Shown here: positions 3,631-6,698 of the stretch, piece by piece
How positions within the stretch are numbered: position 1 is the first letter of the stretch
Layout: the number at the start of each line of letters is the position of its first letter
Assembly (NCBI GenBank): GCA_026387515.1
Contig: JAPLLP010000113.1
Coordinates: 1 to 7,020 of the forward strand
DNA length: 7,020 nt
From: Candidatus Omnitrophota bacterium
GTDB lineage: Bacteria > Omnitrophota > Koll11 > Gygaellales > Profunditerraquicolaceae
Reading direction: 5' to 3'
Translations under genes and position numbers: made by a program
Notes under the pieces: model-generated
What the model saw: only the letters and a program-made list of their open reading frames with translations
Told to the model about the DNA's origin: nothing
Database searches by the model: none

Positions 3631-3714
3631 TGAACACCCGCGCAAATCTTCACCGCGAGGTGAACGCTGGCCCAAATCCTATCTGGGCCAGGCGCTTATT
3701 AGCGCGGGGTGTCA
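3631..3714 (-). repeat. Structured dispersed element, copy 1 (recX-alaS gap)
   Basis: This 84-nt element fills almost the whole gap between recX and alaS and matches 6616-6698 in the same orientation. Read on the minus strand, a closing stem pairs 3714-3702 with 3643-3631 (TGA/TCA ends, a small internal loop, then seven perfect pairs CCCGCGC/GCGCGGG). Inside are hairpin CTGGCCCA/TGGGCCAG with a 9-nt loop GATAGGATT and hairpin TTCACC/GGTGAA with a 4-nt loop. Its first three bases, TGA, serve as the recX stop codon, and its far end lies six bases before the alaS ATG. There is no T-run, so it is not an ordinary rho-independent terminator. The repeat and pairing are seen directly. Whether it acts as RNA, as a DNA palindrome or as a mobile repeat is inference, and I recognise no named family. 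Confidence 0.85.
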
Positions 3715-4170
3715 TAAATTATTCAAAACCTCGATAATGATCTCAGGGCTAAAACCGCGACGCACCAAATAGCCGTAGAGCCTACGCCTGGCCTTCTCCG
3801 GCTCAACAGCTTTATCCCTGGCAAACCTTACCCCGGCAACCTTCTTAACTACCTCTTCTTCTGTATAACCGTACTGGGCTACCTTAAGGCTTTCTTCTAT
3901 GATAGGAGCGCTTATTCCTTTTTGCCTTAGCTCCAGTTTTATCCTTCTTAACCCAAAAGGTTTTTTAAGCCGTTCGGTTACCCAGGCCCGGGCAAAAGCA
4001 ATATCGTCGATAAATTTCTTCTCTTTTAGAAAGTTAAGAGTTTCTTCAACGGCCTGCGGACTAAATCTTTTCTTCTCTAGCCGCTGACGGATCTCTCCCT
4101 CGCTGCGTTGCCTGAATTTTAAGAGCAGGAAGGCATATTCCCGCGCGTCTTTAAAAGAATCTGGCCTCAA
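3712..4170 (-). CDS. recX: RecX family regulatory protein
   Basis: RecX binds RecA filaments in the cytoplasm and modulates, usually inhibits, strand exchange and co-protease activity. The 152-residue product is all-helical with the RecX tandem three-helix pattern. With the start at 4170, DAREYAFLLLKF is followed by SEGEIRQRLEKKRFSPQAVE, then FIDDIAFARAWVTERLKKPFG, LRRIKLELRQKGIS and the final LYGYLVRRGFSPEIIIEVL. The start is uncertain. No ATG exists in the frame. I prefer the TTG at 4170, which overlaps the htrA stop in TTGA, a coupling arrangement like ATGA at alaS-hisD. A TTG at 4212 would add 14 residues and has AAGG only 3 nt upstream. The stop codon TGA at 3714-3712 is the first triplet of the repeat element. 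Two genes downstream of recA and just before alaS, its position supports the call. Confidence 0.9.
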   Translation of the reverse strand: MRPDSFKDAREYAFLLLKFRQRSEGEIRQRLEKKRFSPQAVEETLNFLKEKKFIDDIAFARAWVTERLKKPFGLRRIKLELRQKGISAPIIEESLKVAQYGYTEEEVVKKVAGVRFARDKAVEPEKARRRLYGYLVRRGFSPEIIIEVLNNL

Positions 4171-4940
4171 TCTTTTAAGAGAAAATATCCGCGGCCCGTG
4201 CGAATCAGGCAATTGCCTTTTAAGCCGCTTATCACATTCTTATAATCCGCCAGGTTTACAACCGGCCGCTTATTTATCTCTAACATAATGTCACCACCAA
4301 CAATACCGGCAACATCGGCAGGGCTTCCCGGGATAACCTTAACCACAAAAACACCTTCATTAGTTTCCGCGACAGTCATCCCCCGCCATTTCCCTTCCAC
4401 CGCAACCTGGGATTCTTGCGGTTTCATAGGAGTGCCCTCATCCGGACTTAATCCTACTGTCATCGCCAGGCTCAACTGCTGTTTATCGCGCAATACTACT
4501 ATCTTTATGCTGCGCCCGGCTTCTAACTGGGCAATGGCATTTAAAAACTTCCTGGTAGTATCGACGGCGATATTATCCAGTTGCTCGATCACGTCTCCGG
4601 GCCTTAATCCGCCGATATCCGCAGGGCCGCCTGGCACCACCTGAATTACCAGCACCCCGCGCACATCTTGCAAACCAAGATATTGCACCAGTTGATCGTT
4701 TAAACCTTGCACCACTACCCCCAGCCAACCACGGGGTATTCTTTTACCTGCGATAAGCTGGGAGATTATCCTTTTGGCGTTATTGATCGGCACGGCAAAA
4801 CCAATCCCCTGGTAACCGCCTGTAGTTGAAAATATAGCCGTATTTATACCTACAACCTCACCCCTAAGATTCACCAACGGCCCGCCGGAATTTCCCGGAT
4901 TGATCGCGGCATCGGTTTGAATAAGATTGCCGTAATTCCT
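4167..4940 (-). pseudogene. HtrA/DegQ-type protease, C-terminal part after frameshift
   Basis: This is the continuation of the serine protease gene in the shifted frame. It encodes the end of the protease domain, with the catalytic serine in DAAINPGNSGGPLV, then EVVGINTAIF and GIGFAVPINNAKR. Two PDZ domains follow: PDZ1 from about GWLGVVVQGL through GGPADIGGLRPGDVI to LAMTVG, and PDZ2 from WRGMTVAE through GSPADVAGIVGGDIMLEI to the C-terminus. The joined protein would be 464 residues with Ser225 catalytic, the usual DegP/DegQ length and layout. This part has no ATG near its beginning; the first plausible start is a TTG at 4877, downstream of the catalytic serine, so independent translation would give only the end of the protease domain and the PDZ domains. 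The stop TGA overlaps the proposed recX start. The frame is otherwise clean, so the lesion is either very recent or a sequencing error. Confidence 0.9.
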
Positions 4941-5560
4941 AAGGAACGGTGGAGAGCGCTGATCACGCCTACGGATACCGTCGGCTCAGGATTTTCCATA
5001 GCAAAGGCATAGGGGTTACCAATAGCCACTACCCATTGCCCAACCTTCAAGGCGTCCGAATCACCCAACAGGCTAAAAGGAAGATTATGCGCGCTTATCT
5101 TGATTACAGCCAAATCCAGCCGCGCGTCCGCGCCTCTTATCTCTCCTCTAAAAGCCCGTCCGTCAGCCAGAGTCACGGTGATCTTATCGGCGCTTGCCAC
5201 TACATGCTCGTTAGTCAAAATGTACCCATCGGGGTTAATAATCACCCCTGAGCCAAGCCCCTTCTGCTTAAACTCCCTTTCCGGAACCTCCCCTAAAAAA
5301 TCGCTAAAAAAACGACGGAAAGATTCATCTTCGTTAAAAGGGGAACCGGCAAATAAATTATTATAGACGCTGTAATCCTTGACTCTGGCGATATGCTCGG
5401 TGCTGATAGAAACCACGGCCTTGCCGGAGGCACCGGCGACGTTGATTATCGCGTCTTCCATGCGAAACCCTTCCAAAGAAGGCTTATCCGCATATACGGT
5501 AGCGCAGACCCCCAAACATAAACCAAAAATCAGGCTTAAGTATAGAAATTTTCTTATCAT
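4871..5560 (-). pseudogene. HtrA/DegQ-type protease, N-terminal part before frameshift
   Basis: HtrA/Deg proteases are exported chaperone-proteases that degrade misfolded envelope proteins. The N-terminus has a signal peptide: basic MIRK, a hydrophobic stretch to about residue 20 and VYA at 22-24 as a likely signal peptidase I site before DKP. The trypsin-like domain follows, with GLGSGVIINPDGYILTNEHV (catalytic H119), DARLDLAVIKI (catalytic D149), VGQWVVAIGNPYAF and EPTVSVGVISALHRSL. After about residue 207 the frame is wrong: the remaining 22 residues, ending at a TGA at 4871, are unrelated to the family, and the GNSGG serine motif lies in another frame. As read, the product would lack the nucleophile and both PDZ domains. 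The ATG shares one base with the recA stop (TAATG), and AGGA lies just upstream inside recA. htrA between recA and recX is an unusual neighbour. Confidence 0.93.
4931..4948 (-). other. Frameshift point in htrA
   Basis: Up to the codons for ALHRSL (minus strand near 4950) the HtrA frame is correct. From TACGGCAATCTT, ending near 4923, the family sequence YGNLIQTDAAINPGNSGG resumes in the frame that needs one extra base. Adding one A to the TTAGGAATTAC stretch gives SLRNYG or SLGNYG and restores a 464-residue protein. One base has therefore been lost here, in the genome or in the read. No X-XXY-YYZ slippery heptamer is visible, which argues against programmed -1 frameshifting. Confidence 0.9.
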
Positions 5561-6594: not shown

Positions 6595-6599
6595 TTGAA

Positions 6600-6606
6600 C
6601 CTCCTT
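6600..6606 (-). promoter_or_regulatory. Ribosome binding site of recA
   Basis: AAGGAGG on the minus strand lies 5 nt before the ATG at 6594. It fixes that start and rules against the longer in-frame version beginning in the repeat element. It lies outside the repeat, between the repeat and the gene. Confidence 0.9.
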
Positions 6607-6615
6607 CACAGCAAG

Positions 6616-6698
6616 TGAACGCCGGCGCAAATCTTCACCACGAGGTGAACGCTGGCCCAAATCCTATCTGGGCCAGGCGCCTCTTGGGCCGGGTGTCA
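6616..6698 (-). repeat. Structured dispersed element, copy 2 (recA leader)
   Basis: This 83-nt copy matches 3631-3714. The 56-nt core, from GCGCCTGG to GATTTGCGC on the minus strand, differs at one base, in the loop of the second hairpin (TCGT here, TCGC in the other copy). The two internal hairpins are unchanged. The closing stem pairs the 6698 end with the 6616 end (TGA/TCA, and GTGA/TCAC if 6615 and 6699 are counted), plus CCGGCCC against GCGCCGG with one mismatch. One pair is swapped from C-G in copy 1 to G-C here, a compensatory change. It begins about 17 nt after the predicted transcription start and ends before the recA ribosome site, so it would form most of the recA 5' leader. Its function is unknown. 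Confidence 0.85.

Follow-up and report, generated by a model that had tools for sequence, protein, structure and literature searches.

A probable family of non-coding mobile hairpin elements lying before Shine-Dalgarno sequences in Omnitrophota

We analysed a stretch of 7,020 nucleotides from a Candidatus Omnitrophota bacterium (assembly GCA_026387515.1, contig JAPLLP010000113.1, positions 1 to 7,020), hereafter called the window, in which nearly the same structured element lies before alaS and again before recA. According to our results, these two copies most probably belong to a non-coding, non-autonomous family of mobile elements of Omnitrophota, which mostly dock 5' of Shine-Dalgarno sequences (SDs) in presumed mRNA leaders; we give this reading a probability of about 0.82. 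The family of tiny mobile hairpin elements is apparently large and undescribed so far. Genomes and loci are designated below by our own numbers (G and L).

Results

The two copies of the window

A preliminary description of this DNA had pointed to a pair of near-identical repeats before alaS and recA. This pair is indeed the top direct repeat of the window (3620-3708 and 6605-6693, 89 nt, 87% identity, same orientation), and the 56-nt core with one difference that had been described is present. The element is longer than was thought, as an extra small hairpin lies beyond the closing stem in both copies (3620-3634 and 6605-6619). Both copies fold better than shuffled sequences. The design is not two hairpins within a closing stem: it consists of two nested modules, each made of a small hairpin and a large hairpin with a bulged C. 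The parts are listed below with the scores of two covariance models, R1, which describes the whole element and includes SD columns, and R2, which describes one module without SD columns.

3620..3711, minus strand: element copy 1, a pair of nested modules lying in the recX/alaS gap (R1, 99.0 bits)
3620..3634, minus strand: copy 1 outer small hairpin, TTCATC-TAC-TATGAA, which includes the alaS start codon (3622-3624)
3635..3643 and 3702-3711, minus strand: copy 1 outer large stem, 3' arm and 5' arm respectively, with one unpaired C
3649..3695, minus strand: copy 1 inner module, in the outer loop (R2, 57.7 bits)
3665-3695 and 3649-3664, minus strand: large hairpin and small hairpin of the copy 1 inner module
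6605..6695, minus strand: element copy 2, also a pair of nested modules, lying in the presumed leader of recA (R1, 88.5 bits)
6605..6619, minus strand: copy 2 outer small hairpin, with the recA SD (GGAGG) immediately next to it
6634..6681, minus strand: copy 2 inner module (R2, 60.9 bits)

On each strand, none of 200 shuffles folded as well as copy 1 (z -5.45 and -5.32 for the two strands) or copy 2 (z -4.12 and -4.05). Copy 1 fills the space from the recX stop codon to the alaS start codon. Copy 2 sits between a TTGACA-17-TATAAT site and the recA SD, and the presence of this site upstream implies that the copy should be within the recA leader. In the variants represented by the window copies, the 3' arm of the small hairpin may be host sequence.

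Structure of the module

The unit of the family is a module of about 47 nt, in which a small hairpin abuts a large one bearing a conserved bulged C. On the strand of the downstream gene, it reads CAC, the bulged C, six paired bases, a loop resembling TTATTGGAATT or AGATAGGAATT, the complementary arm and the small hairpin, often TTNNCC-NNNN-GGNNAA. The bulged base is a C in 51 of 52 modules; in a second set, made up of 93 inner modules, this holds for 89. Modules nest inside the loops of other modules to a maximum depth of three, the third module lying inside the second in L025, L026, L029, L030 and L031. Nesting uses a single position of the host loop, with the G on its left and the (A)ATT on its right. 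Of 93 copies with two levels, 79 have GG, AG or TG at the end of the left loop half and 67 have AATT or ATTT as the right half, in agreement with an intact loop split at a single point. Bare modules and tandem arrays are also found; arrays with repeated small-hairpin sequences occur in L056, L058, L105 and L117 (genomes G161 and G144).

The pairing is supported by compensatory changes. In an alignment of 24 sequences, 92.5% of the cells pair and 14 of the 30 pairs show double changes; in 94 model-aligned copies, which drew on 91 sources and not on all loci, these values reach 95.8% and 28 of 30. In the latter, structure-fitted alignment, double-change cells number 420 against 109.5 in shuffles (0/500 shuffles as high), and the covariation score drops from 0.451 to 0.056-0.093 when the partners are slid by 1-3 columns. 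A one-module alignment obtained with plain MAFFT gave 94.5% pairing and double changes in 12 of 15 pairs. Because G-U cells outnumber A-C cells on the sense strand (103 versus 51, an excess possibly due in part to the structural alignment), the data suggest that the sense strand is the one that folds, either as RNA or as single-stranded DNA.

Spread across Omnitrophota

A covariance-model search of related genomes, proposed beforehand, recovered many copies at varied sites, not tied to the orthologues of recA or alaS. In 237 sampled Omnitrophota genomes, R1 (E<=1e-3, up to 16 candidates scored per genome) gave matches in 48 genomes and R2 (E<=1e-4, up to 25 candidates scored per genome) in 49, with 46 genomes common to both. 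When 150 candidates were scored with R2, 12 chosen carriers contained 9, 18, 24, 25, 28, 38, 38, 41, 43, 47, 66 and 67 modules, and five chosen non-carrier genomes contained none. Many Omnitrophota genomes are fragmented, so gene absences are soft. A 22-position pattern, which covers one subtype, was run over bacterial and archaeal species genomes and matched three contigs, all from a single Candidatus Omnitrophota metagenome-assembled genome (Lac Pavin, G001). At E<=10, the 84-nt element matches this genome 51 times, with roughly 20 matches covering its full length, and the DNA query gave one match in each of six more genomes (7/98 including G001). Two exact patterns, each seeing one subtype only, had no match among viral contigs.

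The earlier remark that no named family fits agrees with Rfam 15, in which the window has no match above the gathering cut-off (best sub-threshold E 0.34-0.82); a known Rfam RNA or riboswitch in the window was therefore rejected. Searches of a collection of open-licence papers listed none that describes a family of this kind in Omnitrophota.

Placement before genes

Copies lie mostly in the sense direction, flush against an SD, and less often at a start codon or at the 5' end of a tRNA gene. Since R1 includes SD columns, placement counts made with it are biased, and we prefer an SD-free sample of 40 further copies drawn with R2 from G155, G200 and G153. In this sample, an SD-like motif is found immediately downstream of 32 copies and immediately upstream of one, and the ATG of an open reading frame (ORF) of at least 60 codons lies within 70 nt downstream in 31, compared with 7 in reverse. 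Two of the 31 forward ATGs (L227 and L255) are near tRNA genes and are possibly false starts; by eye, GTG, TTG or short-ORF starts account for several of the nine misses. In the R1 set, the ATG of such an ORF is near the end of the small hairpin in 65 of the 94 copies (4/94 in the reverse direction), and 33 of these 65 lie 9-11 nt past the hairpin. An SD-like motif stands immediately downstream in 56/94, and 10 of the 94 copies start right after the stop codon of the upstream ORF.

Departures from the common arrangement were also seen. A tRNA-Gly was located by ARAGORN at the hairpin end in L079 and L227. The SD core forms part of the 3' arm of the small hairpin in L081, L082, L112 and L114. 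In L122 and L127, the left flank contains an SD-like motif and the element runs straight into the ATG; the folded element would therefore separate the SD from the start codon at these two loci. The target genes are unrelated: in addition to recA and alaS in the window, NCBIfam models identified rpsF, a P-II gene, the genes of serine hydroxymethyltransferase and aspartate kinase, and a parB-like gene; further targets were assigned by eye.

Orthologous sites

Similar modules are embedded in dissimilar flanks. Module identity is 0.80 in G155 and 0.75 in G200 (190 and 120 pairs), as against 0.36-0.38 for the 50-nt flanks. Orthologues of 15 element-bearing genes of G155 were sought in G200 and G153, and 24 of the 28 orthologous sites were vacant. 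Under a two-sided alignment criterion (at least 0.70 on the left, 0.71 on the right), five vacant sites align on both sides, all in comparison with G153: glyA, parB, rpsF, L236 and L096. At glyA, the vacant site reads GATAAAAACATA/AGGAG and the filled one GATAAAAAAATA-element-AGGAG; at parB, the vacant site reads ACAAATTCCA/AAAGGAGCG and the filled one ACAAATTCCA-element-AAAGGAGCG, in both cases without duplication or loss. The rpsF junction is less clear, with GGGTG instead of GGAGC. Where the flanks of the vacant site align, the junctions are precise and lie just 5' of the SD, and no general target duplication was found among the 94 copies. At rpsF, glyA and parB, elements are present in both G155 and G200 with stems that differ, by independent insertion, replacement or fast compensatory change. 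In L275, G200 has only ATACCCTTTCAGGATAAGGAGG before the gene, possibly a relic of a small hairpin; G155 and G153 carry an element at this site.

Conservation with recA and alaS was not observed. With R2, the 30 best alaS loci gave no match before alaS, one of these loci (L181) beginning at a contig end. The 30 best recA loci gave one weak match before recA (L196, G016, 22.3 bits, E 0.0031), a bare TTCAT-hairpin module followed by GGAGGG, directly before the recA SD; two other matches in recA loci (L215 and L197) lie elsewhere than before recA. The closest relative, G001, has AlaS and RecA proteins 84% and 96% identical to those of the window, yet neither copy is found at the same place. A leader conserved with recA or alaS was rejected on these data. 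Of the two explanations considered in the preliminary description, the dispersed palindromic repeat is supported: the copies are numerous and precede unrelated genes, they resemble each other in unlike flanks, and the orthologous sites are mostly vacant. The shared leader RNA holds for the sense-direction position in a presumed mRNA leader but not for conservation with either gene.

Genes of the window

The minus-strand genes of the window are recA, a split htrA-like gene, a recX-like gene, alaS and hisD. The features next to the two copies are the following.

1000..3624, minus strand: alaS (TIGR00344, 922.5 bits)
3712..4212, minus strand: recX-like ORF (RecX models, scores below curated cut-offs)
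3712-3714, minus strand: stop codon of the recX-like ORF, abutting copy 1
5560..6594, minus strand: recA (TIGR02012, 545.4 bits)
6600..6604, minus strand: SD of recA, GGAGG (recA start codon at 6592-6594)
6722..6750, minus strand: promoter-like site TTGACA-17-TATAAT upstream of copy 2, by consensus match only

The promoter-like site is of sigma-70 type, with 12 of 12 consensus positions matching (6750-6722). Upstream of this recA promoter, at 6761-6806 (minus), lies the conserved motif GTTAGAT...CGTCTATT...AAAGG(A/G)GG, which a regular expression detected in 16 of the 30 recA loci of relatives. The motif could be an extracytoplasmic function (ECF)-type promoter with an SD, belonging to something small upstream of recA. 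The Do/HtrA-like protease gene (4167-5560, minus) consists of two overlapping ORFs matching complementary parts of TIGR02037, owing to a frameshift, a pseudogene or a sequencing error. In relatives, recX and alaS are close, and by inspection some junctions overlap as TTATGA (L172 and L176). In L158 (G001), an unrelated long palindrome, CCAGACCCGCGGTGGA...TCCACCGCGGGTCTGG, is located between recX and alaS, at the position of copy 1.

Discussion

How could such an element come to rest against an SD? We propose a scenario drawn from placement, junctions and structure. An enzyme acting in trans would recognise the hairpins and insert a module either 5' of an AGGAG-like target or into the loop of another module, and the asymmetry of the AGGAG target would fix the orientation. 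Outside genes, most AGGAG-like motifs would be SDs, and within genes selection would remove the insertions; as a consequence, the surviving copies would sit at ribosome-binding sites. Once co-transcribed, the element would form compact hairpins with the SD left accessible, and the gene would therefore still be translated. As to the enzyme, our guess is a single-strand transposase of the Y1/HUH type that binds hairpins, or a relative of such a protein, because Y1 transposases of this kind make use of bulged hairpins and of a short target beside them (PMC6006769, PMC8266576). One could go further and imagine mobile elements that target the translation start signal itself, that is, single-strand hairpin parasites homing in one direction to SDs and to their own loops and forming a removable layer of structured leaders that could adjust how dozens of housekeeping genes are translated in roughly one fifth of the phylum. 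We advance this broader view tentatively, and are more inclined to doubt it than to hold it.

Several observations weigh against a mobile family. Both window copies show apparent 5-nt direct repeats (TATGA and TGTGA), unlike the duplication-free sites elsewhere, and at 4 of the 28 orthologous sites the element is present in both genomes. The comparison of vacant and filled sites is compatible with gain as well as with precise loss. No mobilising gene was found: Y1 transposases are not enriched in carriers (40/48, versus 153/189 of the others), nor is reverse transcriptase (PF00078, 10/48 versus 42/189), and no R2 module lies within about 1.7 kb of 20 Y1 genes from 14 carriers. Moreover, in a comparison of 131 proteins from 159 elements (two loci counted twice, L036/L048 and L037/L086), 24 cross-genome protein pairs, comprising about 14 ortholog groups and response-regulator paralogues, share the placement, which function could also explain. 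As a separate observation, G210, a genome that is in neither the R1 nor the R2 carrier list, has a weak R2 match (L130:396-441, 25.3 bits, E 1.9e-4) and, at a distance of about 1 kb, a strong Y1 transposase gene.

Such shared placement is what one would expect of a family of cis-regulatory leader RNAs, whose hairpins would govern how ribosomes reach the SD, or intercistronic processing, in a set of housekeeping genes and would be kept or regained for this function. The sense placement against the SD, the G-U excess of the sense strand, the SD held within the small hairpin's 3' arm at four loci and the additional weak match before recA all point the same way. However, the large majority of orthologous sites are vacant, alaS has no element and recA a single weak match in 30 loci each, and a regulator accounts poorly for nesting and tandem arrays, for copies at tRNA genes and for a patchy presence across genomes. 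Nor do the copies mark a CsrA regulon: CsrA (PF02599 above cut-off) was detected in 2/48 carriers and in 19/189 others, and CsrA-controlled leaders were rejected on these figures. We therefore consider the leader RNA unlikely. Sense-only placement in a presumed transcript and the same G-U bias would also be accounted for by homing at the RNA level, in which the element would enter mRNA at ribosome-binding sites and be copied back into DNA by reverse transcription. Reverse transcriptase genes are nonetheless no commoner in carriers than in other genomes, many of which are fragmented, and some copies abut tRNA genes, which makes this route very improbable. As to a local duplication within the operon, it would fit the two copies seen in the window, but there are dozens of copies in G001 and other genomes; we give it practically no credit, and local duplication or chance was rejected on the copies of G001 and the 48 of 237 genomes. 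The mobile, non-autonomous family is the reading that we retain.

Comparison with known repeats

The Omnitrophota family works like the small palindromic mobile repeats (REP, miniature inverted-repeat transposable elements (MITEs) and BOX) but does not show features that define REP and TA-type MITEs and that were looked for here. According to work on E. coli, REPs are short imperfect palindromes with a bulge needed for TnpA-REP activity (PMC8266576), and they are reported to occur paired with RAYT genes (PMC3116915). Like REPs and REPINs, the modules are high-copy, intergenic, imperfect and bulged palindromes. Unlike them, they are placed strictly before SDs and they nest. Membership in REP/RAYT was rejected, as the GT[AG]G foot stands directly before the element in 1/94 copies (0/94 on the other strand) and no module lies beside the 20 Y1 genes (14 carriers; not every Y1 gene of the carriers is covered).

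IS200/IS605-type transposons are not known to duplicate their target on insertion. Their ends are hairpins and their target is a tetranucleotide, as described in PMC6006769. Hairpin-only derivatives of these transposons resemble our family in their hairpin ends and short flanking target. In our family, precise junctions free of duplication were seen at glyA and parB, and apparent 5-nt repeats at the window copies. In contrast with IS200/IS605, no transposase is present in or beside the Omnitrophota element, and Y1 genes are not enriched in carriers.

MIRU elements of mycobacteria are found at stop/start junctions of operons, where both codons are kept, and contain a small ORF. Copy 1 is likewise at a stop/start junction with both codons kept, but the Omnitrophota elements are structured and lie mainly before SDs. 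The double-hairpin elements of fungal mitochondria consist of two adjacent GC-rich hairpins, are mobile and insert into one another. Adjacent hairpins and self-insertion are common to these organelle elements and to our family; SD docking is not known from the former. ERIC, NEMIS, RPE and other MITE-like repeats are described as shorter than 200 bp, with structured transcripts and without a transposase, most of them with target duplications and a terminal TA (PMC2229807). The Omnitrophota elements are also small, structured and devoid of a transposase; in contrast to TA-type MITEs, their left flank ends in TA in 8/94 copies, and they show no general duplication.

The pneumococcal BOX, RUP and SPRITE repeats are non-coding and structured, BOX being modular; half of their insertion sites are reported to be common among strains, and they are over-represented between convergent genes (PMC3049150). 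Our family has the opposite location, at gene starts. According to the same report (PMC3049150), small repeats of the pneumococcal type are found above all where they should be least harmful, behind genes. With the SD preserved, with its folding in the presumed mRNA and with its self-insertion, the Omnitrophota family would illustrate how parasitic DNA is able to settle at the point where a gene is most sensitive. It offers a natural experiment on leader structure versus translation and, for Omnitrophota, a defined mobile element from which a search for the enzyme can start.

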